From positions 62,001-126,000 of the forward strand of contig DAIDHW010000002.1 in assembly GCA_027451865.1 (NCBI GenBank): a DNA stretch of 64,000 nucleotides, read 5' to 3'. The position numbers and the translations under genes were made by a program. Within the stretch, counting starts at the first letter, position 1, and the number at the start of each line of letters is the position of its first letter. This stretch comes from Leptolyngbyaceae cyanobacterium clean351. GTDB taxonomy: Bacteria > Cyanobacteriota > Cyanobacteriia > DAIDHW01. Positions 11,888 through 55,655 of this stretch are shown piece by piece. The notes beneath the pieces were generated by a model. That model was not told the DNA's origin. It was given only the letters and a program-made list of their open reading frames with translations, and did no database searches.

Positions 11888-12629
11888 AGGACTTACTGCG
11901 GCTGCGGTGGTAGTCACCCCGGGAGAGGTTTTTCTCTAGCCAGACGTAGAGGACAATAAAGAGGTAGCGGCTGCCCATCTCCTTGATCTTGAGCTTAGAG
12001 ATGCCAGTCTTGCGGTTGTACCAGTTCATGGGAATTACTGTGTAAGTAAACCCCCGTACTACAGCCTTGAGAGGCAGTTCCACGGTTAGATTGAAGTGGT
12101 GACTGAGAATTGGCTGGACCCCCTCAATTACTTCCCGGCGATAGACCTTGAAGGCGTTGGTAACGTCGTTATAACCCAGACCAAAGATAATGTTAACAAA
12201 CCAGTTGGCCATGCGGTTGATCAGTAGCTTGTGGGCGGGGTAGTCCACCACCCTTGCCCCCCGCATGAACCGGGAGCCAAACACGCAGTCGTAGCCTTCC
12301 TGAAGTTTTTGGTAGGCTACCACTAAGTCCCGCGGGTCGTCGGAGGCATCAGCCATCATTATGGCTACCGCATCCCCCTGAAATACTTGCAGACCGCAGC
12401 GGACCGCAAAGCCAAACCCGTGAGGGGGCTGGTTGTGGATCAGGCGGACAGCCGGGTAAGTCTCCACTAGGCGGGCGCACACCTCGGGAGTGCGGTCGGT
12501 GCTGTTATCGTTGATGACTACAATTTCGTGGGGGATCTGAAATTCCTCTAGAGCTACCACTAGCAGTTGTACTGTCTCGTAAATGCAGCCCTCTTCATTG
12601 TGGGCCGGAATGACTACCGAAAGTTTCAT
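11880..12629 (-). CDS. GT2 glycosyltransferase (dolichyl-phosphate mannosyltransferase-like)
   Basis: Family 2 glycosyltransferase of 249 residues. It starts with the GT-A fold MKLSVVIPAHNEEGCIYETV, followed by VVINDNSTDRTPEVC and the metal-binding region IMMADASDDPRDL. Length and motifs resemble DPM1-type enzymes that load a sugar onto polyprenyl phosphate. A hydrophobic patch WFVNIIFGLGYNDVTNAF lies near the middle, but there is no clear C-terminal membrane domain. First gene of the run leading to two sugar-nucleotide epimerases and the transglutaminase-like protein. The activated sugar and acceptor cannot be told from sequence. Confidence 0.9.
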   Translation of the reverse strand: MKLSVVIPAHNEEGCIYETVQLLVVALEEFQIPHEIVVINDNSTDRTPEVCARLVETYPAVRLIHNQPPHGFGFAVRCGLQVFQGDAVAIMMADASDDPRDLVVAYQKLQEGYDCVFGSRFMRGARVVDYPAHKLLINRMANWFVNIIFGLGYNDVTNAFKVYRREVIEGVQPILSHHFNLTVELPLKAVVRGFTYTVIPMNWYNRKTGISKLKIKEMGSRYLFIVLYVWLEKNLSRGDYHRSRSKSYG

Positions 12630-12731
12630 CAGCCTAATTTAAAGGACGTCAGACCCCACTAGCCCTGACCCGGGTCGGGGTTTCCATGGGTGACTATCCC
12701 ATGATATCCCTCCTGGGGTAGCTCAGGCCCC

Positions 12732-12764
12732 AAAAAACAGCCTGGACGCTTGGCATACAGGCTG
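12732..12764 (-). terminator. Rho-independent terminator of the RHH-ycf46-ycf35 operon
   Basis: On the minus strand CAGCCTG (12764-12758) and CAGGCTG (12744-12738) form a perfect 7-bp stem, directly followed by six T (12737-12732). It lies just after the last ycf35 stop and upstream of the glycosyltransferase gene. This is the cleanest terminator in the window. Confidence 0.88.
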
Positions 12765-12794
12765 CTTAACAGCAAGGGCTAGATCTGGTTTGCT

Positions 12795-13145
12795 CTACTG
12801 AAGGAGCAGTTTAACGTTGGCGCCCTGTAGGCCGGGCCGCTTCACGTCGTTGAGGGTTTTGTTAACGGCGTACTTCTGATTAATGGTGTTGATCAGATCA
12901 GTTTGGTTGTGCTTCTTGGCCACGCCCCAAAGATCTGCTATCAGATCAAAGGAACCGTCCGTGTTCCGGCTCCAGCCCAAGTCGTAGTCCCCATCAAGGA
13001 CAGCTACCACATCGGCCCGCAGGCGCTGGCCATTGTAACCCCGGACGTCGGCGTCAGTCTTGACTACCATGCCCAAGTCCCGCAGGGAGGTTTGGAGAAT
13101 GGTGCTGTCAGTAATCTTGGTACGTAGAGTGCTAAAGTGAGACAT
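12795..13145 (-). CDS. ycf35: Ycf35 (DUF1257) family protein, downstream copy
   Basis: 116-residue protein of the Ycf35/DUF1257 family, known from algal plastids and cyanobacteria; its function is not established. The sequence starts MSHFSTLRTKITDSTILQTS and carries RADVVAVLDGDYDLGW, GSFDLIADLWGVAKKHNQ and INQKYAVNKTL, all conserved in the family. It is a tandem paralogue of the gene at 13275, about 88% identical by eye. It ends the operon before a strong terminator. One 74-base block (12981-13054) is identical to the other copy, although the flanks differ at many silent sites. Confidence 0.93.
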   Translation of the reverse strand: MSHFSTLRTKITDSTILQTSLRDLGMVVKTDADVRGYNGQRLRADVVAVLDGDYDLGWSRNTDGSFDLIADLWGVAKKHNQTDLINTINQKYAVNKTLNDVKRPGLQGANVKLLLQ

Positions 13146-13274
13146 GGAGTGACCTCTGCTAAAATCCCTGAGTCTGAAAACCTGACTATGGTTTCGTCCG
13201 GTATGGGATGGCCGGCAAGTCCAGAGACTGGCCCCCTAGGGAACCCCGACCAACCCGACCGGACCGTTATCTCC

Positions 13275-13625
13275 CTACTGCAGCACCAGCTTGACGTTAG
13301 CCGCTTGCAGGCCGGGGCGCTTCACCTCGCTGAGGGTTTTATTGACCGCGTACTTTTGGTGGATGGTATCGATCAGGTCGGCTTGATTGTGCTTTTTGGC
13401 CACCCCCCAGAGGTCTGCCACTAAGTCGAAGGAGCCGTCTTCATTTTGGCTCCAGCCTAGGTCGTAGTCCCCATCAAGGACAGCTACCACATCGGCCCGC
13501 AGGCGCTGGCCATTGTAACCCCGGACGTCGGCGTTGGTCTTAACTACCATGCCCAAGTCTCGTAGGGAAGTTTGTAGGATGGCGCTGTCGGTGATCTTGG
13601 TGCGCAGGGTGCTGAAATGAGACAT
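13275..13625 (-). CDS. ycf35: Ycf35 (DUF1257) family protein, upstream copy
   Basis: 116-residue paralogue of the gene at 12795, with the same length and no gaps. Differences cluster towards the C-terminal half (for example DLIDTIHQKYAVNKTLSEV against DLINTINQKYAVNKTLNDV). It lies 142 bases downstream of ycf46 on the same strand, and 129 bases separate the two copies. The C-terminal position of the differences suggests the copies are under slightly different selection. Function unknown; linkage to ycf46 suggests a shared process. Confidence 0.93.
   Translation of the reverse strand: MSHFSTLRTKITDSAILQTSLRDLGMVVKTNADVRGYNGQRLRADVVAVLDGDYDLGWSQNEDGSFDLVADLWGVAKKHNQADLIDTIHQKYAVNKTLSEVKRPGLQAANVKLVLQ
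13461..13534. repeat. 74-bp exact direct repeat within the ycf35 pair
   Basis: This block is identical base for base to 12981-13054, exactly 480 bases apart. Outside it the two genes differ every few bases, largely at third positions. The sharp edges suggest a recent gene-conversion tract rather than slow divergence. Confidence 0.9.
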
Positions 13626-13719
13626 TTTAGGTTTTCTCCCGTTGGTGTAAGGTCAACCGAAACAAGAACGAACGTTGCGAACAATCGTGGTGAAGAGCAC
13701 TTCGGACTTACGGACAACT

Positions 13720-13735
13720 GCTAGCTTGCGCTAGC
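13720..13735 (-). other. Tetraloop hairpin between ycf46 and ycf35
   Basis: GCTAGC, TTGC, GCTAGC: a perfect 6-bp stem that on the transcribed strand closes a GCAA (GNRA-type) tetraloop, 32 bases after the ycf46 stop. No T-run follows, so it is more likely an RNA-stability or processing element between cistrons than a terminator. Confidence 0.4.
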
Positions 13736-13767
13736 CCTTCCCCCTAGGATGTAGGGAAGAAAGCCTG

Positions 13768-15273
13768 TTAGAATTCCAACCGCTGGTATTCCGCGGTGGC
13801 GGTGGCCGCCGGCCGGGCCCGCTGTCTGGCCCAGTCTCGCAGGGCCGTAACCTGTTCACTCATGGTCTTGGACAGGGGCAGGGTGGCCTTGATGGCGGCG
13901 ATGATATCCAACTGGTTAAACTCTCGGTCCTGGGCGAAGGCTTCATACATGGCTGAGATCAAAGCCTGCTCAATCTCAGCTCCTGAGAAGCCATCGGCGA
14001 TAGTAGCCAACTGTTCCAAGTCAAAACGGCCGACCTCTCGGTGGCGCTTGTCTAGGTGGATCCGGAAGATGTCTTGTCGCTCGCCACTGTTCGGCAGATC
14101 GACAAAAAAGATCTCGTCAAATCGCCCCTTACGTAAGAACTCCCCCGGTAGCCGGTCGATGCGATTGGCAGTGGCCATGACAAAGACTGGGGAGGTTTTC
14201 TCCTGCATCCAGGTTAAAAAGGTGCCAAAGATCCGACTAGAGGTGCCACCATCGGAGTCGGCAGAGCCGCCAGTGCCCGCAAAGGCCTTGTCCAATTCAT
14301 CTATGAACAGGAGAGCTGGGGAGATGGATTCGGCGGTCTTCAGGGCCCCCCGCAGGTTGGCTTCCGAGCGCCCCACCAAGGAGCCGTCGTAGACCCGACC
14401 CATATCCAACCGCAGTAGGGGCAAGCCCCACAGCCGGGCCGTGGTCTTAGCGATCAGGGACTTGCCACACCCGGGCACTCCTAGAATCAGCATCCCCTTG
14501 GGCTGGGGCAGACCATACTCCCGGGCCCGGGCCGTGAAGGCGTTGGAGCGCTGCCGGAGCCACCGCTTCAATTCCTCTAGGCCTCCAACGGAGTCTAGGG
14601 TCTCATCTTCTTCGATGTAGTCAAGGATGCCATTGCGGCGGATCAGCTGTTTCTTTTCCGACAAGACAATTTCCACTTCATCCCCGGTCAGCCGGCCTCT
14701 AGTAACCTGGGCCTTACGGTAAACCTTCTCCGCCTCGTCCCGGGTCAGGCCTAAGGCTGCCCGCAGGAGTTTTTCCCGGGCCAAGGCCCCCAAGCGATTG
14801 GGGTGCTGGTCTGCGTACTGGGAGAGTACCTGATTGAGTTCGCTGAGGGAGGGGAGGGCAAAGTCTAGGACTACTACTTCCTTCTCCAACTCCACTGGAA
14901 TTTGCTGCACTGGGCCCATTAGAATAATTGTCTTTTGGGTGCCCTTAAAACTGGCGATGGCGTCCCGCAGCCAGCGGGTCACCTCGGGGGCGTCAATGAA
15001 GGGGTGGAGGTCCTTAAAAATAAACACCCCCGGCTCCCGTTGCCGGATCACCCATTCGATAGCCGCCTGGGGCGAAACAGTGTTGTGCTGCGAGGTGGTG
15101 CGAGGCTGACCGTACTCGACGATCCCGTGGGTGACTGTCCACAAAAACAACCGCCGGGGAGACTTACCTTGGGTGATGGCGGCGATAGCCTGCTCGGCCC
15201 GCTCCTCCTCTGAGGTCAAAAGCTGAACCAGAGGATACTGGGCTTGAAGCAGGATGCTGAGTTCTTCTTTCAT
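13768..15273 (-). CDS. ycf46: AAA+ ATPase Ycf46
   Basis: Soluble AAA+ ATPase of about 501 residues, found in cyanobacteria and algal plastids. The N-terminal half (about 1-230) is the Ycf46-specific region. The ATPase core follows: Walker A GVPGCGKSLIAKT, Walker B ALLFIDELDKA, sensor-1 FVMATANR and arginine-finger region LRKGRFDEIFFVDLP. A lid domain closes the protein. I favour the ATG at 15273 (MKEELSILLQAQYPLVQ); a GTG at 15282 and an ATG at 15279 are alternatives. It lies 27 bases after an RHH gene and upstream of two ycf35 genes. I recall a stress-responsive operon around slr0374 in Synechocystis with a similar gene; the substrate is unknown. Confidence 0.93.
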   Translation of the reverse strand: MKEELSILLQAQYPLVQLLTSEEERAEQAIAAITQGKSPRRLFLWTVTHGIVEYGQPRTTSQHNTVSPQAAIEWVIRQREPGVFIFKDLHPFIDAPEVTRWLRDAIASFKGTQKTIILMGPVQQIPVELEKEVVVLDFALPSLSELNQVLSQYADQHPNRLGALAREKLLRAALGLTRDEAEKVYRKAQVTRGRLTGDEVEIVLSEKKQLIRRNGILDYIEEDETLDSVGGLEELKRWLRQRSNAFTARAREYGLPQPKGMLILGVPGCGKSLIAKTTARLWGLPLLRLDMGRVYDGSLVGRSEANLRGALKTAESISPALLFIDELDKAFAGTGGSADSDGGTSSRIFGTFLTWMQEKTSPVFVMATANRIDRLPGEFLRKGRFDEIFFVDLPNSGERQDIFRIHLDKRHREVGRFDLEQLATIADGFSGAEIEQALISAMYEAFAQDREFNQLDIIAAIKATLPLSKTMSEQVTALRDWARQRARPAATATAEYQRLEF

Positions 15274-15299
15274 AACCATCACTTGGGTAAGGGGAAAGG

Positions 15300-15605
15300 C
15301 TAGCAGGTGATCAGACTTTCATGGGGGCCTAGCTGGTCCTGCACAACCAGACCCGAGGCGCCCTGAGAATTTAAGGGGAATAGCTCACCCTCGCGGATGA
15401 CCATGCTCTCCGTACAACTAGGACAAGTGTATACCCGGTGGGTGTGGCCATAGGCGGACTCCACCAGAGCCCCATGGGCCAGATAGAAACTAATGGCCCG
15501 CTCTGCCAGGTCCGACATTGGCACGCCGGTAGCGGCGGCATGAATCTTCAGCTGACGATGCAGATCGGCGGGGAGATATAAAGTTACTTTCTGTTTGTCT
15601 TGCAT
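15300..15605 (-). CDS. Ribbon-helix-helix protein with a CxxC motif
   Basis: A 101-residue protein. Residues 1-45 look like a ribbon-helix-helix (CopG/Arc-type) DNA-binding fold: VTLYLPADLHRQLKIHAAATGVPMSDLAERAISFYL. The C-terminal half has a single CPSC motif and a final Cys, a possible metal or redox site. It is the first gene of the ycf46-ycf35 operon and the promoter directly upstream is strong, so it may repress its own operon. That role is inferred from position and fold only. RBS quality is modest. Confidence 0.8.
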   Translation of the reverse strand: MQDKQKVTLYLPADLHRQLKIHAAATGVPMSDLAERAISFYLAHGALVESAYGHTHRVYTCPSCTESMVIREGELFPLNSQGASGLVVQDQLGPHESLITC

Positions 15606-15641
15606 ATACTTGCGGGTGGCTGTACTCCCTCATGGTAAATC

Positions 15642-15670
15642 ATCTTAAGTCTGGGAGCCTATGCTGTCAA
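15642..15670 (-). promoter_or_regulatory. Sigma70-type promoter of the RHH-ycf46-ycf35 operon
   Basis: On the minus strand a perfect -35 box TTGACA (15670-15665) and a -10 box TAAGAT (15647-15642) stand exactly 17 bases apart, some 37 bases upstream of the RHH start. It lies in the divergent space shared with putA. A CCAGC-GCTGG inverted repeat lies just upstream (about 15673-15686) and could be an operator. Confidence 0.75.
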
Positions 15671-15761
15671 GCCAGCTTGCTGGTATACCGGCAAAAGCGT
15701 AACATTAATTAACTTTAGAATCAGGCACAATTAGTTTGTCTCTCTCTACCCCTAGATCACC

Positions 15762-18647
15762 GTGGCGAATCATTCCAGTACTTACGAATCCTTAACCCAG
15801 GAAATTGGCCACCAGCTATTGACCGCCACTCAAGAAATGGGGGCTTTTTTCGGTTCCCTGCGCTGGGATGACAAACTCCTCGCCTGGGCTATGGCTCACC
15901 CTGGACTGCGGGTGCAACTATTTCGCTTCATCGACTGCCTCCCGGCCCTCCCCAACAAGACGGAGATTGCTAATCATCTCCAGGGATATCTAAGCAGCCC
16001 CGGAGTAGAGTTGCCCTCGGCCCTAAAAACCCTCTTGAATTTTCCCCAGGCTGACTCCCTAGCCGGAAAACTGGCCGCCACTACGGTGACAGGTGCGGTT
16101 TCTACCCTCGCCCAACGCTATATTGCCGGGGAGTCTATTCCTCAGGTGCGCAAGAATTTAGCCAAACTCCAGCAGGCAGGGATGAGTTTTACAGTCGACC
16201 TGTTGGGGGAGGCAGTGATTACCGAAGCCGAGGCTCAAGGATATCTGCAGAACTATTTACACCTCATGGAAGCCCTAGGCACCGGTCAAGTATCCGTGAA
16301 GTTGACTGCTCTTTACTCCCAATTTGACCCCTTGGACCGGGAGGGGAGTAGTCGCAAGGTCAAGGAGCGAGCTCGCCTGCTGCTGCGCCGCGCCCAGGAG
16401 TTGGGTGTACAGGTGCATTTTGATATGGAGCAGTACGCCTACAAGTCCCTGACTTTGGAGATTCTCCAGGAGCTGTTGTCGGAGGAAGAATTTCATGAGC
16501 GCACCGATGTCGGCATTACCCTCCAGGCCTACCTGAGGGACAGTGCCCAGGACCTCCATGACCTGCTAGCCTGGGGACAGCAGCGGGGCTACCCGGTAAC
16601 TGTCCGTCTTGTCAAGGGAGCCTACTGGGACCAAGAGACTATCCATGCTGCCCAGCAGAATTGGCCGGCGCCGGTGTTTGCCGCCAAAGGAACTACCGAC
16701 GCCAACTTTGAGCAGCTCACCCAGCTGCTGCTTGAGCATCACCACATCCTCCGGCCCGCTATCGGTAGTCATAATGTCCGCTCCCAGGCCTGGGCCCTGG
16801 CGGTTGCTACCCTCCGCCAAATCCCTCCTGCTCAGATTGAGTTTCAGGTCCTTTACGGGATGGCTGACCGCCTGGCCCAAGCCCTAGTCCGCCGCGGTCA
16901 ACAGGTGCGAGTCTACTGCCCCTACGGCGAGCTGATACCGGGTATGGCCTACCTGATCCGGCGCCTCCTGGAAAACACCGCCAATAGTTCCTTCTTGCGT
17001 CAAAGTCTGGAGAAGCGCCCTCCCCAGGAGCTGCTAGCCTCGCCCCAAGCCTCCGAGGTGGTTGCCCCTGGGCCTCAGGGGTTTACCAATGCCCCTAACA
17101 CTGACTACGCTGACCCCCACCAAAGACTAATTGCCCAGGAGGCCTTGGCCCAGGTCCGTGCGCAACTCGGCCAAACCTACTGGCCCCTAATTAGAGGGGA
17201 GTACCAAGTCTGTGGGACGGTAATTGAGTCGGAGAACCCGTCTCAGCCCGAGGAGATCATTGGTCGGGTGGGAATGGTGGGGATTGAGGAAACCGAAGTC
17301 GCCCTGCACGCGGCCAGAGCGGCCTTCCCGGAGTGGCGCTGTACCCCGGTGGCCGAGCGCAGTCGTATCCTGCGCCGGGCCGGGGAGTTGATGGAGTGCA
17401 GACGAGGCCAACTAGGAGCCTGGATTGCTCTAGAGGTAGGTAAACCCCTAGCGGAGGCGGACGCGGAGGTTTCGGAGGCGATCGACTTTTGCTACTACTA
17501 CGCCCAGGAGATGGAGCGCCTAGACCGGGGCCAGGCAGCGGACATTCCCGGGGAGACTAACCGTTACACCTACCAACCCCGCGGCCTAGTGGCGGTGATT
17601 GCCCCCTGGAATTTCCCCTTGGCGATCCCAGTAGGTATGACGGTGGCGGCCCTAGTGGCTGGTAATTGTGTTTTGCTCAAGCCGGCAGAAACCTCGGCGG
17701 TCATCGGGGCTCACTTTGCTGCCATCCTCCAGGAGGCCGGGGTGCCCGGGGGGGTGTTTCAGTACCTCCCTGGGGAGGGTTCCCTAGTGGGGGCCCACCT
17801 GGTCCGGCACCCCTGGGTGCACATGATTGTGTTTACGGGCTCCCAGGCCGTAGGTTGCCAGATCTACGCCCAAGCGGCTCAGCTCCAGCCCGGTCAGCAG
17901 CACCTGAAGCGGGTAGTCGCCGAGATGGGGGGCAAAAACGCCATTATTGTTGACACCAGCGCCGACCTGGACCAGGCAGTCCAGGGGGTAGTGAACTCGG
18001 CCTTTGGCTACAGTGGTCAGAAGTGCTCCGCTTGCTCCCGCGTGATTGTGCTTGAGACTATCTACGAGCGATTCTTGGCGCGTTTGGTGGAGGCTACCCG
18101 CTCTCTCACGGTAGGGGTAGCCACCAATCCGGGCACCCGGGTCGGCCCCGTGATCGACCGGGCGGCTCAAGAGCGGATTCAAGCCTGGATTGCCCGGGCC
18201 CCTCACCAGGGAGAGGTGGTGCTAGCCATGCCCAGTCCAGCTGGGGGATACTTTGTGGGCCCGGTAATTGTGGCTGGCGTAGACTCCCAGGCTCCCCTCG
18301 CCCAGGAGGAGATCTTTGGCCCTGTGTTGGCGGTGCTCCGGGCGGTAACCTTCTCCCAGGCGCTGGAAATTGCTAACGGCACCCCCTACGCCCTCACCGG
18401 GGGACTCTATTCCCGCACTCCCTGGCACATTGCTCAAGCTCAAACCGAGTTTGCCGTCGGTAACCTCTACATCAACCGCACCACCACCGGGGCAGTGGTT
18501 AACCGCCAGGCCTTTGGCGGCTTTAAATTATCAGGGGTGGGGTCTAAGGCGGGCGGGCCTGACTACCTGCTGCAGTTTCTTGAGCCGCGGGTGGTGACGG
18601 AAAATATTCAACGCCAGGGATTTGCGCCGATTCCGGGGACTGAATAA
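15762..18647 (+). CDS. putA: Bifunctional proline dehydrogenase / glutamate-semialdehyde dehydrogenase (PutA type)
   Basis: Oxidises proline to glutamate in two steps. 961 residues from a GTG at 15762. The proline dehydrogenase barrel (about 100-430) has SVKLTALYSQFDP, VHFDMEQYAYK, VRLVKGAYWDQE and the flavin-site region YCPYGELIPGMAYLIRRLLEN. The aldehyde dehydrogenase half (about 500-950) has APWNFPLAIP, EMGGKNAIIV and the nucleophile Cys in SGQKCSACSR. There is no N-terminal ribbon-helix-helix domain, so this is not the autoregulatory trifunctional form. Channelling between the two sites is usual in the family. It is a single gene; the divergent promoter of the RHH operon lies upstream. 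Confidence 0.96.
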   Translation: MANHSSTYESLTQEIGHQLLTATQEMGAFFGSLRWDDKLLAWAMAHPGLRVQLFRFIDCLPALPNKTEIANHLQGYLSSPGVELPSALKTLLNFPQADSLAGKLAATTVTGAVSTLAQRYIAGESIPQVRKNLAKLQQAGMSFTVDLLGEAVITEAEAQGYLQNYLHLMEALGTGQVSVKLTALYSQFDPLDREGSSRKVKERARLLLRRAQELGVQVHFDMEQYAYKSLTLEILQELLSEEEFHERTDVGITLQAYLRDSAQDLHDLLAWGQQRGYPVTVRLVKGAYWDQETIHAAQQNWPAPVFAAKGTTDANFEQLTQLLLEHHHILRPAIGSHNVRSQAWALAVATLRQIPPAQIEFQVLYGMADRLAQALVRRGQQVRVYCPYGELIPGMAYLIRRLLENTANSSFLRQSLEKRPPQELLASPQASEVVAPGPQGFTNAPNTDYADPHQRLIAQEALAQVRAQLGQTYWPLIRGEYQVCGTVIESENPSQPEEIIGRVGMVGIEETEVALHAARAAFPEWRCTPVAERSRILRRAGELMECRRGQLGAWIALEVGKPLAEADAEVSEAIDFCYYYAQEMERLDRGQAADIPGETNRYTYQPRGLVAVIAPWNFPLAIPVGMTVAALVAGNCVLLKPAETSAVIGAHFAAILQEAGVPGGVFQYLPGEGSLVGAHLVRHPWVHMIVFTGSQAVGCQIYAQAAQLQPGQQHLKRVVAEMGGKNAIIVDTSADLDQAVQGVVNSAFGYSGQKCSACSRVIVLETIYERFLARLVEATRSLTVGVATNPGTRVGPVIDRAAQERIQAWIARAPHQGEVVLAMPSPAGGYFVGPVIVAGVDSQAPLAQEEIFGPVLAVLRAVTFSQALEIANGTPYALTGGLYSRTPWHIAQAQTEFAVGNLYINRTTTGAVVNRQAFGGFKLSGVGSKAGGPDYLLQFLEPRVVTENIQRQGFAPIPGTE

Positions 18648-50090: not shown

Positions 50091-53000
50091 ATGGGTTCTT
50101 TCACCTGCCTGTCCTTGAGTCCCATCTCCGTAGGTTCCCTTGGTGTTGCCCTGGCCACCAGTCAAGCTGGGGGCGTCGGTTGTCTGGACCTGGAGTTTGC
50201 TCCTGATCCTAGTTGGGCAGCATCACTGTTGACTAGGTTTTGGGGAGAACTAAAGCCCGGGGAGCGAGGGGGTGTTCGACTGTGGGCTGAACAAATCCCC
50301 GCCTATCACCCCTGGATTAGCGAGATCCGTCCCCATTGGCTGATCCTAAGTCACTGGGACCTAGACACCTTGGAGCTGAGTTTGGAGATGCTGGGGAATT
50401 GCCCTGGCCGGACCCTGTTGCTTGAGGTTCTAGATTCTCGGGTCACCCTCCCAGACCAGTTGCCTATTCAGGGAGTAGTCGGCCGGGGGCACGAAAGTGG
50501 TGGCTGGGTCTCCAACGACTCGGCCTTTATCCTGACCCAGAAACTCCTAGCAGCCGGTACTTACCCGGTCTATGTCCAGGGGGGGATGGGGGTGTTCACG
50601 GCCGCTGCCTGTCGCGGGGCGGGGGCAGCGGGAGTGGTTCTGGATGATTGCCTGTGGTTAATGCCCGAGACTAACCTATCCCAAGACTGGCAACATCACC
50701 TAGAGCGTCTCAGTGGCCAGGAGGCTACGGTGCTTGGGGAGAGACTTGCCCCTTGTCGAGTGCTGGTCCGGCCTGGCTTGGCGGCAGCAGCTAGGCTGGA
50801 GCGCTTGGCAGACCAAATTGAGGTGGACACTGAAGGGACCGGGGTCGATCGCTGGCGGCGGGAAGCCCAGCCCTGGCTGGGTTGGCAAGACCCTCAGCAG
50901 ACTGCCTGGCCCCTAGGACAGGCCGTAGGGCTGGCGGCCACCTACCGGGACATCTATCAAACTACCGGCCGCCTGGTGCGGGCTCTGTTGCGCAATAGCC
51001 AGGACCTGACCAGTGTGGCCCATCACCACGCCCCCCTAGCTCCCCATAGCCCCCTAGCCCTTTCCCACCGCACCACGTACCCAATCGTTCAGGGGCCCAT
51101 GACCCGGGTCAGTGACACGGCCGAATTTGCCCAGGCGGTGGCCCAAGGGGGGGGCCTACCCCTGTTAGCTCTGGCTCTGATGCCTGGACCCCAGGTCCGC
51201 CAGCTGCTGGCCAAAACCCAGGCCCTACTCGGGGGCCTATCCTGGGGGGTGGGGATGTTGGGCTTTGCCGATCCCGGCCTGCGGGAGCAGCAACTAGAGG
51301 CGGTATTGGCGGCCCATCCCCCCTTTGCCCTGATTGCCGGCGGCCGGCCTGACCAGGCGGCCCACCTAGAGCGCCAAGGTATTGCTACCTACATCCATGT
51401 GCCGGTGCCCCAACTGTTGCGAATGTTTTTCGCCCAGGGGGCCCGGAGGTTTGTGTTTGAGGGCCGTGAGTGTGGAGGACACATCGGCCCCCTCTCGAGC
51501 TTTGTACTTTGGGAGAGCATGATCACCACCCTGCTCGAGATTGTCCCTCCGGAGGCTGCTCCTGAGGTACACATCCTGTTTGCCGGTGGGATCCACGACC
51601 GACTCTCCGCCGGTTTAGTAGGGGTTCTGGGGGCCCCCCTGGCTGCCCGCGGCATGAAGATTGGGGTGTTAATGGGCACGGCCTACCTATTCACCCGGGA
51701 GGCGGTAGCCTGTGGAGCCATTCAGCCAGGCTTCCAGGCCCAGGCCCTCGCCTGTCGGGAGACCGTCAACCTAGAAACTGGTCCTGGTCACGCCAGCCGC
51801 TGTGTGGATACCCCTTTTGCCCGGGAATTCTACCGTACCCGGCGGCAGCTAATCGCCCAGGGTCGCTCGGCGGAGGAGGTGAAGAACGCCCTAGAGGAAC
51901 TGAATCTAGGCCGCCTGAGAATCGCTGCCAAGGGCCTAAATCGTAATTCCCGGGGGGAAATTATCCCCGTCAGTCCCCAGGACCAACTCACCGAGGGGAT
52001 GTACATGATCGGCCAGGTAGCTACCCTACCCCACCAGGCCGGCTCCATTGCTGACCTGCATGTCCTAGTGTGTGACCAGGAAGTAGCACCCCCTGTTTCT
52101 AACTCCCCCCGCCCGGCCGACGTGGCAATTATCGGCATGGCTACCCTGGTGCCCCAGGCTGACAGTCCCTCCCAGTTTTGGCAAAACATCCTCCAACAGG
52201 TTAATGGTCTAACCGAGATTCCTGCCCACCGGTGGGATTGGCACCTCTACTACGACCCTGACCGCAACCGCCGCGACCACATCTACTCCAAGTGGGGTGG
52301 TTTTTTACCGGAGACCCCCTTTGACCCGGCCCGCTTTGGCATCCCCCCCCGCTCCCTCCCCTCTATTGAGCCGGTACAGTTGTTGACCCTGGAGGTGGTC
52401 CGCCGGGCCCTAGAAGATGCGGGCTACGGCACCCGAGACTTTGACCGTGAGCAAACCTCGGTGATCCTGGGGGCCGGGGGCGGCATTGGTGACCTAGGGG
52501 GCCTCTACGCCACCCGCTCAGCCCTACCGAGTGTCGTGGCAGACCCCGACCCCCTAGCCTGGGACCGCCTGCCCGAGTGGACAGAAGAGAGCTTCCCGGG
52601 GCTTTTGCCCAATGTGGCCGCCGGCCGGGTCGCCAACCGCTTCAACCTCGGCGGACGTAACTTCACCGTAGATGCCGCCTGCGCCTCCTCCCTGGCCGCC
52701 ATTGACCTAGCGGTGCAGGAGTTAGAAACTGGCCGCAGTAACCTGGTAATTGCCGGGGGCATTGACACCGGCCAAAGTCCCTTTGCCTACTTCTGCTTTA
52801 GCAAAACCCAGGCCCTCTCTCCCCAGGGCCAACCCCGTCCCTTCGATAAAAATGCTGACGGTATTACCATCAGTGAGGGGATTGCCATCCTTGTCCTCAA
52901 ACGCCTCTCGGAGGCGGAGCGGGATGGAGACCGGATCTATGGGGTGATTAAAGCAGTAGCTGGCTCTAGTGACGGCCGGGCCCTGGGAATGACTGCTCCT

Positions 53001-55655
53001 CTGCCTGCCGGGCAGCAGCGTGCTCTGCAGCGGGTTTACGCTAAAGCGGGCTACTCCCCCCACACCCTGGGGCTGTACGAGGCCCACGGCACAGGCACCG
53101 TAGCTGGAGACCGGGCAGAACTAGAGACCGTTTGCCATACCCTGGCCGGGGCACCTCCCCAGACCTGCCTGATTGGCTCGGTTAAAAGCCTAGTTGGGCA
53201 CACCAAAAGTGCCGCCGGGGTAGTGGGGCTTACCAAGGCAGTCCTAGCCTTGCACCACCAGGTCCTCCCCCCCCACTACGGGGTTGAAGAACCCCTCGAC
53301 CCCTGTACTGACCCGACTAGCCCCGTTTACCTCCTACGGGAGCCCCGCCCTTGGCTAGCTCCCCCGGGCCATCCCCGCCGGGCGGGAGTTAGTGCCTTTG
53401 GTTTCGGGGGCACAAACTTCCATGTTGCCCTAGAAGAGTACCCCCAAGCAGCGCTCCCGGGGGCCCAGGCTTGGCCATGGGAACTAGTGTTACTCTCTGG
53501 CCAAGACCAGGTAGACCTCAAGGGTCAGGTCCAGCGCCTCGGGGCCCAGCTCCAAGCAGGGGCTACCCCAGATCTGGCGGACCTAGCTTATACCCTGGCC
53601 CTAGTGCCGCCGGGGCCGGCGCGAGTGGCCCTGGTGGTGTCTACCCTAGCCCAGCTCCAGACTACCCTAACTGCCCTAGAAGCACACTTAGCCGATCCAG
53701 TGCGTTCCCCCCTCCCCCCGGAAGTGCGGCTAAATCTCCAACCCCTAGCCCCCGGGAAGGTGGCTTTTCTGTTCCCGGGTCAGGGGTCCCAATACCCGGC
53801 TATGGTCCGGGAACTGGCCCTGTATTGTGGGGAGGTGCGCCGAGCCCTGGAGCTGGCGGACCGGGAGCTAGGGCCTGAACTACCCCGGCCCCTCAGTCAG
53901 TACGTTTACCCCCCGGCTAGTTTTACTCAACAGCAGGAGCGTTACCACCAGCAGGAGCTCACCCAGACCCAGATTGCCCAGCCAGCGATTGCCGCAGTGG
54001 AGATGGGTTTACTTGACCTAGCCACGCGGTTGGGGATGAGCCCTGATTTATTGGTGGGCCATAGTTTAGGGGAGTACGCAGCCCTCTACGCCGCCGGAGT
54101 CTTAGCCGGGCCTGACCTACTGCGTCTAGTCCGGGCGCGCAGCCTGAGCATGGCCAGTGCCGGGGCCCAGGTGCCGGGCATGATGGCGGCAGTGCAAGTT
54201 TCCCGCGACCAGTTAATGACCATGCTTGAACCAGGTGTGGTGCTAGCCAACCACAATGCCCCCCTGCAGTCGGTGGTTTCTGGCCCCTTAGACCTAGTAA
54301 CGCGTCTGGTGGAGAAGTGGCAAAGCTTGGGGATTAATGCCCGGCTCCTGCCGGTTTCCGGGGCCTTTCACTCCCCCCTGATGGCTGGGGCACTGCCTGA
54401 ATTGACAGCTGCCATCGCTGAGACTAAATTCACCACCCCCCGGCTGCCAGTGTATGCCAATGCCACCGCCGTTCCTTATCCCCCGGACCCGGCTAGCATC
54501 CAGGCTCATCTGCTGGAGCACCTCACTGGCCCCGTGGCCTTTGTAGACCAGGTGGAAGCTCTTTACCAAGCCGGGGCTCGGGTGTTTGTTGAGCTTGGCC
54601 CCAAGGCCATCCTGACCAAGCTAGTCGGCCAGATCCTCGCCCAGCGGCCCCACACTGCTGTCGCCTTTGAGGGTCAAGGAGAAGGGTGGCGGGGTTTCCT
54701 GGGCACCTTGGGTACCCTGTTTATCCTAGGGGTAGTCTGGGACCCCCCCGCCCTGTTTATGGGTCGCCGCCGCCGGCGCCTAGACCTGGCTCGGCTGGTA
54801 GACCTGACCCGCCCCTCACCCCTCACCCCCACTACCTACATGGTAAGTGGGGCAGCTGTCCGGTCTCCCCAGGCTCCCTCAGCTTCCCTCGGCCAGCGGC
54901 CACTACTGACCCAAGCCCAGCCCCTTAAGGCTCCCTTGCCCTCCGCTCAACTCTCTCCCATGGACTACTCCCCTGTATCTATTAGCCCTCCGACTTCCTC
55001 GAATGGCTCCCCTGAGGTGCTCCTAGCCCTCTACCAGGCTTATCAAGCCGCCATGGGTCAGTTTCTCCACAACCAGGAGCGGGTGACAGGCCAATTCCTC
55101 CGTGCCCTCACCTCTAGCCCTAATGATCATCGTTCAGCCAACCTACCCGCCCCCGCCTATCAAAATGGCGCCCTCCCCCCAGCTGTTCCCACTCCAATGG
55201 CGGCTCCAGTTGCCCCGCCGGTGGTGGCTGCCTCAATACCCGCTCCAGTTGCCCCGCCGGTGGTGGCTGCCCCAATACCCGCTCCAGTTGCCCCGCCGGT
55301 GGTGGCTGACTCGATACCCGCCCCGGTCGCCCCGCCGGTGGTGGCTGCCCCAGCCCCCCCGGACACCCTGGACCGGCCTACCTTAGTACAGATACTGGTG
55401 AACCTAGTCAGTGACCGGACTGGCTATCCGCCGGACATGCTGGGATTGGACCAGGACCTAGAGGCTGACTTGGGTATTGATTCAATTAAGCGAGTGGAGA
55501 TCCTCGGCGCCCTCCAAAAGGCTTTACCCACGGGCCTGCGGGGGTCAGTTCAGCAGGACATGGAGCAGTTTACCCGAGTTAAGACCCTCAACGTCCTGGT
55601 TGATCAGATCCTGCAACTTGTCACCCCGGATACCCCTCGCCTGGGAAAGCCCTAG
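50091..55655 (+). CDS. Pfa/Hgl-type synthase, part 1: enoyl-reductase-like, KS, AT, ACP
   Basis: 1854-residue megasynthase subunit. Residues 1-660 look like a flavin-dependent enoyl reductase of the nitronate-monooxygenase/PfaD type: a degenerate first half, then YPIVQGPMTRVSDTAEF (about 330) and RECGGHIGPLSSFVLWE. Ketosynthase about 677-1110 with Cys864 (DAACASSL), His999 and His1037. Acyltransferase about 1215-1530 with LFPGQGSQ and Ser1325 (VGHSLGEYAAL). A Pro/Ala repeat linker (1705-1756) leads to one ACP (about 1760-1835) with Ser1798 in DLGIDSIKRVEIL, the ACP type of PUFA synthases. It ends at a TAG right after GGGAAAG; the next frame continues the homology. Likely makes a long-chain fatty acid or hydroxy-lipid; the product is unknown. 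Confidence 0.9.
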   Translation: MGSFTCLSLSPISVGSLGVALATSQAGGVGCLDLEFAPDPSWAASLLTRFWGELKPGERGGVRLWAEQIPAYHPWISEIRPHWLILSHWDLDTLELSLEMLGNCPGRTLLLEVLDSRVTLPDQLPIQGVVGRGHESGGWVSNDSAFILTQKLLAAGTYPVYVQGGMGVFTAAACRGAGAAGVVLDDCLWLMPETNLSQDWQHHLERLSGQEATVLGERLAPCRVLVRPGLAAAARLERLADQIEVDTEGTGVDRWRREAQPWLGWQDPQQTAWPLGQAVGLAATYRDIYQTTGRLVRALLRNSQDLTSVAHHHAPLAPHSPLALSHRTTYPIVQGPMTRVSDTAEFAQAVAQGGGLPLLALALMPGPQVRQLLAKTQALLGGLSWGVGMLGFADPGLREQQLEAVLAAHPPFALIAGGRPDQAAHLERQGIATYIHVPVPQLLRMFFAQGARRFVFEGRECGGHIGPLSSFVLWESMITTLLEIVPPEAAPEVHILFAGGIHDRLSAGLVGVLGAPLAARGMKIGVLMGTAYLFTREAVACGAIQPGFQAQALACRETVNLETGPGHASRCVDTPFAREFYRTRRQLIAQGRSAEEVKNALEELNLGRLRIAAKGLNRNSRGEIIPVSPQDQLTEGMYMIGQVATLPHQAGSIADLHVLVCDQEVAPPVSNSPRPADVAIIGMATLVPQADSPSQFWQNILQQVNGLTEIPAHRWDWHLYYDPDRNRRDHIYSKWGGFLPETPFDPARFGIPPRSLPSIEPVQLLTLEVVRRALEDAGYGTRDFDREQTSVILGAGGGIGDLGGLYATRSALPSVVADPDPLAWDRLPEWTEESFPGLLPNVAAGRVANRFNLGGRNFTVDAACASSLAAIDLAVQELETGRSNLVIAGGIDTGQSPFAYFCFSKTQALSPQGQPRPFDKNADGITISEGIAILVLKRLSEAERDGDRIYGVIKAVAGSSDGRALGMTAPLPAGQQRALQRVYAKAGYSPHTLGLYEAHGTGTVAGDRAELETVCHTLAGAPPQTCLIGSVKSLVGHTKSAAGVVGLTKAVLALHHQVLPPHYGVEEPLDPCTDPTSPVYLLREPRPWLAPPGHPRRAGVSAFGFGGTNFHVALEEYPQAALPGAQAWPWELVLLSGQDQVDLKGQVQRLGAQLQAGATPDLADLAYTLALVPPGPARVALVVSTLAQLQTTLTALEAHLADPVRSPLPPEVRLNLQPLAPGKVAFLFPGQGSQYPAMVRELALYCGEVRRALELADRELGPELPRPLSQYVYPPASFTQQQERYHQQELTQTQIAQPAIAAVEMGLLDLATRLGMSPDLLVGHSLGEYAALYAAGVLAGPDLLRLVRARSLSMASAGAQVPGMMAAVQVSRDQLMTMLEPGVVLANHNAPLQSVVSGPLDLVTRLVEKWQSLGINARLLPVSGAFHSPLMAGALPELTAAIAETKFTTPRLPVYANATAVPYPPDPASIQAHLLEHLTGPVAFVDQVEALYQAGARVFVELGPKAILTKLVGQILAQRPHTAVAFEGQGEGWRGFLGTLGTLFILGVVWDPPALFMGRRRRRLDLARLVDLTRPSPLTPTTYMVSGAAVRSPQAPSASLGQRPLLTQAQPLKAPLPSAQLSPMDYSPVSISPPTSSNGSPEVLLALYQAYQAAMGQFLHNQERVTGQFLRALTSSPNDHRSANLPAPAYQNGALPPAVPTPMAAPVAPPVVAASIPAPVAPPVVAAPIPAPVAPPVVADSIPAPVAPPVVAAPAPPDTLDRPTLVQILVNLVSDRTGYPPDMLGLDQDLEADLGIDSIKRVEILGALQKALPTGLRGSVQQDMEQFTRVKTLNVLVDQILQLVTPDTPRLGKP
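55203..55358 (+). repeat. 39-bp tandem repeat coding for a Pro/Ala linker
   Basis: Four copies with a 39-base (13-residue) period, starting near 55203, 55242, 55281 and 55320. Each encodes APVAPPVVA followed by a short variable end (ASIP, API, DSIP). It forms a flexible linker between AT and ACP. Near-identical copies suggest recent expansion and possible length variation between strains. Confidence 0.9.
55643..55649 (+). other. Candidate -1 programmed ribosomal frameshift site (GGGAAAG)
   Basis: The zero-frame codons GGA AAG sit in the heptamer G GGA AAG, which matches the X XXY YYZ rule and is the phage lambda gpG/gpGT slippery site. The zero-frame stop TAG follows two codons later (55653-55655). 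A -1 slip changes the end from LGKP-stop to LGKALEVPRYQIQAYRAP and enters the KR-DH frame. GGTCC (55657) can pair with GGACC (55700), a weak stem starting eight bases after the heptamer; a competing stem TCCAAG/CTTGGA (55674-55702) is also possible. A one-base loss from GGGAAAAG would leave the same sequence. Confidence 0.55.

Follow-up and report, generated by a model that had tools for sequence, protein, structure and literature searches.

The cyanobacterial operon slr0373-slr0374-slr0376 is reportedly treated in Singh and Sherman 2002 and in Jiang et al. 2015. In one account it figures as an operon of unknown function that responds to stress, namely to high light, blue light, salt, oxidative stress and a shortage of iron, sulfur or nitrogen, and its gene slr0374 is called Ycf46 (PMC7496141); in another, slr0376 is reported to be transcribed either as the final gene of this operon or independently, from a promoter of its own (PMC7283877). 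The ycf35 gene is placed, in the relevant section of another paper, in a cluster g with the order DUF2997-ycf35-fed7 (PMC4284462). Gene conversion, finally, is a process described in parts of PMC6053082 as homogenising paralogues within one genome.

The locus considered here lies in a 64,000-nt stretch of the genome of Leptolyngbyaceae cyanobacterium clean351 (the window, meaning this whole stretch at its full length), where four genes follow one another on the minus strand: a gene for a ribbon-helix-helix (RHH) protein of slr0373 type as the first operon gene (15300..15605; NCBIfam NF052617, 120 bits against a cut-off of 100), an AAA ATPase gene of slr0374/Ycf46 type (13768..15282; Pfam AAA, E 6.8e-28), immediately 3' of it copy B of a DUF1257 gene (13275..13625; Pfam PF06868, E 1.3e-21) and, as the final gene in the run, copy A (12795..13145; PF06868, E 1.7e-21). 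Both copies are intact ORFs of 116 codons, their PF06868 scores are 76.8 and 77.2 bits (cut-off 22.2), and together they form a single direct-repeat family with a spacing of 480 bp. An earlier note on this DNA had spoken of two ycf35 genes 480 bases apart; the two copies and the 480 bp between their starts stand, the gene name does not. A and B are flanked by a glycosyltransferase gene and the AAA gene, not by the DUF2997 and ferredoxin genes that mark ycf35, and the true ycf35 of this genome is found at a third locus (L003 1435-1821, contig C1), with a DUF2997 gene on one side and a 4Fe-4S ferredoxin gene on the other. Given these operon neighbours, the separate ycf35 cluster and the sides taken in the tree, A and B are on sequence grounds slr0376-type DUF1257 genes, relatives of ycf35 that end an slr0373-slr0374(ycf46)-slr0376 operon.

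The tree places 35 slr0376-type sequences on one side of a branch with an SH-aLRT of 89, which is below the 95 required for a star (99 when L149 is added), and eight ycf35-type sequences on a side of their own with an SH-aLRT of 90, likewise below 95 and with long branches flagged; A and B fall outside the latter group. An AAA homologue is present at 92 of 97 loci, some of which represent the same place, and is missing from five, L003 with its ycf35 gene and the four loci L094-L097, which carry non-adjacent copies. The order RHH-AAA-DUF1257 recurs at all six loci for which longer flanks were available (L004-L009), Synechocystis salina included. The name is thereby corrected: DUF1257 proteins beside a Ycf46-type ATPase are not Ycf35. 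DUF1257 and AAA form a recurring gene pair, since a third kind of DUF1257 gene occurs at two further loci (L152 in G121, L154 in G417) with a second AAA gene close by, whose protein is 44-48% identical to that of the window. Outside cellular chromosomes, the only match among phage records is a DUF1257-like protein of Microcoleus phage My-WqHQDG (OR578707.1 12504-12848), which shares 32% identity with B along its whole length; in plasmid records there were two distant DUF1257 matches, and a pattern scan of viral contigs returned 46 matching stretches, none of which was confirmed as a relative.

Some further features of the window may be recorded here. A promoter and terminator scan yielded 3 and 5 sites, against 1.2 and 3.1 expected from shuffles; the only PADLOC matches were to IetA and fall in the ATPase region of this operon's AAA protein; and no tRNA genes were detected in the 64,000 nt. 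Tandem repeats of 39 bp (55175-55330), encoding Pro/Ala/Val-rich repeats, lie within a large ORF (50091-55655) that looks polyketide synthase-like by eye and is one of three large ORFs extending up to 62265 in this 2.5-Mb genome.

The two copies differ at 61 of 351 nucleotides and share 90% amino acid identity, and these differences are distributed very unevenly. All 50 differing codons, 38 of them silent and 12 with a replacement, lie outside codons 32-55, where a block of 74 nt (gene nucleotides 92-165) is identical at every base, as the earlier note had claimed, along with its observation of many silent differences in the flanking codons; the block occupies 12981..13054 in A and 13461..13534 in B, both on the minus strand. 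The second longest identical run between the copies measures 17 nt, and a run of 74 nt was reached in 0 of 20,000 shuffles under each of three schemes (uniform, codon-phase-preserving, whole-codon). Using a codon-usage expectation drawn from 15 long ORFs of the window, synonymous codons outside the block match in 38 of 76 cases (29.7 expected, z 2.0), whereas inside it 24 of 24 match (9.5 expected), so that the silent sites of the two genes are nearly saturated except in the block. Outside the block, dN amounts to 0.06-0.07 and estimates of dS range from 2.2 to 3.6; a codon-based dN/dS is undefined for some segments, in which dS is saturated or zero.

Comparison with other genomes was based on 95 homologous sequences from 93 loci (own-genome loci L001-L003 and L065 excluded), 92 of them distinct, of which 91 passed filters on length, the start MSHF, 60% identity to B and absence of N; both copies of genome G346 (see below) and the four non-adjacent paralogues L094-L097 are among these 91. 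Representatives numbered 65 for the Sawyer-type test, 33 for the protein tree and 52 for the block-omitted trees, all trees being quick IQ-TREE searches with SH-aLRT support only. In a Sawyer-type permutation over 113 polymorphic third positions, the gene-conversion test that the earlier note had proposed, 3 of 100,000 permutations reached the score of the A-B pair taken alone; with the highest score among all 2211 pairs of the alignment as the measure, the figure was 34 of 1000, with A-B ranking first and one between-species pair scoring 11.8 against 13.4 for A-B. The significance is therefore strong for a pair named in advance and modest once all pairs are taken into account. Among the 1760 homologue pairs with a nucleotide divergence of 14-21% (a subset of the 4095 pairs that the 91 homologues form), none carries a run of at least 74 nt, the longest being 60.

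The block is, moreover, not generally conserved DNA: used as a query against 388 genomes of the class it matched 53, its own included, and identity over the length of the block does not exceed 82% outside its own genome, three higher values being pieces of 25-35 nt, while the mean share of A/B synonymous codons found in the 91 homologues is lower within the block (0.29) than outside it (0.43). Conservation of the block at the DNA level in other species, which the earlier note had named as a finding that would speak against its reading, was rejected on these grounds. It should be noted that the homologues are distant and come from other orders, with a mean nucleotide identity to the block of 70%; the window genome is the sole member of its order in the sample; GC3 is alike in both copies. 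The tract is thus longer than chance would give and is not explained by general conservation, and the proposal that gene conversion homogenises the core of the two genes gains support on both counts.

With respect to their origin, A and B are each other's closest relatives, grouping as sisters with an SH-aLRT of 97 in the protein tree and of 99 in a DNA tree computed without the block; in the protein tree the grouping carries no starred value once the block is omitted, and over codons 56-116 the nucleotide identity of A to its best homologue (78.1%) is on a par with that to B (75.4%). Six residues are common to A and B and absent from 87 homologues (the 91 after removal of L094-L097), five of them outside the block (Q18, M26, V27, D83, T87) and one inside (V46). 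The idea that one copy was acquired from a different lineage was rejected in view of the sister relationship, weaker as it is in some trees and segments. Rejected as well was a recent duplication of the whole gene, as synonymous sites outside the block are near random and the spacers are dissimilar: the 129-bp spacer from B to A (13146..13274, minus strand) has no similarity to the one upstream of B, blastn with word size 7 returning matches of 9 nt at most.

The expectation that most cyanobacteria keep a single copy holds for the slr0376-type gene: at E<=1e-35, 310 of the 388 class genomes matched, 284 of them with one copy and 26 with two or more, and in 24 of these 26 the copies are far apart or on different contigs. 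Tandem copies occur in two of the 310 only, the window genome (G000) and G346. In the family of the latter, 37 of 38 genomes match and G346 alone has two copies; in another family, where 215 of 217 genomes match, two copies occur in 11 genomes at E<=1e-42 and are never in tandem. The G346 copies follow the same AAA gene at a spacing of 582 bp and differ at 11 of 348 nucleotides, again as a mosaic, with one difference in the first 269 nt and ten in the last 79 (scan test 2/20,000). As blastn detected no similarity between these two copies in the 150 bp upstream or in the 150 bp downstream, a fresh duplication of the region does not easily account for their near-identical part. Non-adjacent pairs (26 in 24 genomes, made up of 25 first-second pairs and one second-third pair in G328) have longest identical runs of 9-27 nt at 61-72% nucleotide identity; they are an imperfect control, being more diverged than A and B, which makes long runs less likely anyway. 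Some of the non-adjacent second copies are not free proteins, as the slr0376-like DUF1257 domain lies at or near the C-terminus of ORFs of 430-557 amino acids (L179 102-1775 in G097, L180 481-1773 in G602, L181 506-1885 in G585), whose N-terminal parts gave no Pfam match above the cut-off and weak HEAT and TPR matches in one. Of three genomes of 2.8-3.1 Mb, two (G183 and G268) have an slr0376-type gene with stop codons, the AAA match of G183 being fragmented too, and the third (G147) has no DUF1257 match, while G143, with 4.8 Mb and of the same genus (g45), has the gene without stops (comparison including loci L150 and L151); this looks like operon decay in reduced genomes.

Could the mosaic have arisen by other means than recombination? 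An assembler crossing the 74-nt repeat might have swapped the halves of the copies or joined the genes of two strains; the genome is in 48 contigs, and a length of 74 nt is in line with the word sizes commonly used in assembly. Yet the copies differ at 61 sites, each has its own spacer, and they lie about 75 kb inside a contig of 227 kb; even after a swap of halves both copies would be there, with the block identical in each, and the tandem pair of G346 sits in an assembly of about six contigs, so that we consider an artefact quite unlikely. Chance is scarcely credible as an explanation: about half of the codons in the block are indeed those the window prefers, and a shared preference could in principle have produced 24 identical synonymous codons in a row, but the probability of this under the window's codon usage is 4.6e-11, the less favoured codons CTT, GTA and GCT also stand in the block of both copies, and pairs of homologues at equal divergence offer no equal run (0 of 1760). 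Chance codon preference was rejected on the strength of that probability.

Selection on DNA or RNA in this lineage only, through an embedded element, a structured RNA or an overlapping gene, could likewise have kept the block identical, and with close relatives absent from the sample a constraint confined to one lineage is conceivable. What speaks against it, and makes it highly improbable in our view, is that the synonymous codons are not conserved with homologues; RNA folding z-scores for the block and its surroundings are -0.30 to 0.40 and no Rfam match reaches the gathering score within 12600-15800, which led us to reject a structured RNA, and an opposite-strand ORF over the block of A (12903-13127) has no counterpart of at least 60 amino acids over that of B among the ORFs listed, for which reason an overlapping gene was rejected.

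The mosaic of A and B is thus very probably the product of recent short-tract gene conversion, without crossover, after an old tandem duplication. An ancient tandem duplication in this lineage would have doubled the last gene of the stress operon, and the two copies would then have drifted to near saturation at synonymous sites while purifying selection continued to act on their proteins. More recently, homologous recombination between the two genes, within one chromosome or between chromosome copies, would have overwritten one gene with the other, without crossover, over the 74 nt between the differences at nucleotides 91 and 166; the boundaries of the tract are sharp because its flanks are near-saturated. 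We infer RecA-type gene conversion as the agent, its recency and the use of both copies.

The suggestion that the copies differ mainly in the C-terminal half is true as a count, the replacements numbering 2 in codons 1-31, 0 in codons 32-55 and 10 in codons 56-116; per site this gives 0.065 on the left and 0.164 on the right (homologue averages 0.133 and 0.078), and left and right do not differ significantly (Fisher test, p = 0.33). In the protein tree the branch of B (0.094) is longer than that of A (0.038). The residue commonest among homologues is replaced in B alone at positions 60, 69, 82, 86 and 89, in A alone at 100 and 114, and in both copies at 15, 31, 62, 99 and 108; T82, N86 and N89 are present in A and in 87 of 87 homologues, where B has A, D and H. 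The pattern would agree with C-terminal changes specific to one copy or the other, which need not mean selection, and the idea that selection may keep two variants would fit the low dN together with the copy-specific replacements. Should the copies have specialised, the changes of B at invariant positions would point to a part of slr0376 that may be relevant in the stress operon. An AlphaFold model of copy B, built from 8 sequences, has a mean pLDDT of 56.3, a quality too low for a fold search; among solved structures, the protein had no relative at E<=0.1. A mosaic is present in both tandem pairs found, that of this genome and that of G346, which belong to different lineages. It is a rather doubtful speculation from sequence comparison that tandem slr0376 copies, wherever they arise, might undergo domain-limited concerted evolution, keeping the upstream part or core in common while the C-terminal part diverges, so as to provide two partner versions for the Ycf46 AAA ATPase.

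A literature search on these genes and on cyanobacterial gene conversion showed no report of the A/B tandem pair among the papers listed. Known systems provide points of comparison. Ycf35, encoded in the DUF2997-ycf35-fed7 cluster, has the Pfam DUF1257 family in common with A and B, but its type forms a separate branch and is only about 33-34% identical to theirs. For the slr0376 operon of Synechocystis PCC 6803 the comparison was made with the related Synechocystis salina (L006), which has the same order of RHH, AAA and DUF1257 genes, an AAA protein 78% and a DUF1257 protein 76% identical; the slr gene numbers, which refer to PCC 6803, were taken from papers, and the sequences compared are those of S. 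salina. S. salina has one slr0376-type and one ycf35-type gene, whereas the window genome carries the last operon gene twice in tandem. As to the process, the likeness to the paralogues in the portions of PMC6053082 concerned is that gene conversion homogenises copies within one genome, and the difference is one of extent: there, whole paralogues cluster by species over long times, whereas in A and B a single tract of 74 nt stands within genes that are near-saturated elsewhere. The A/B tract is a new example of a known process, a real and ordinary event, and the pair offers, in compact form, a natural illustration of gene conversion over a short tract in a cyanobacterium.
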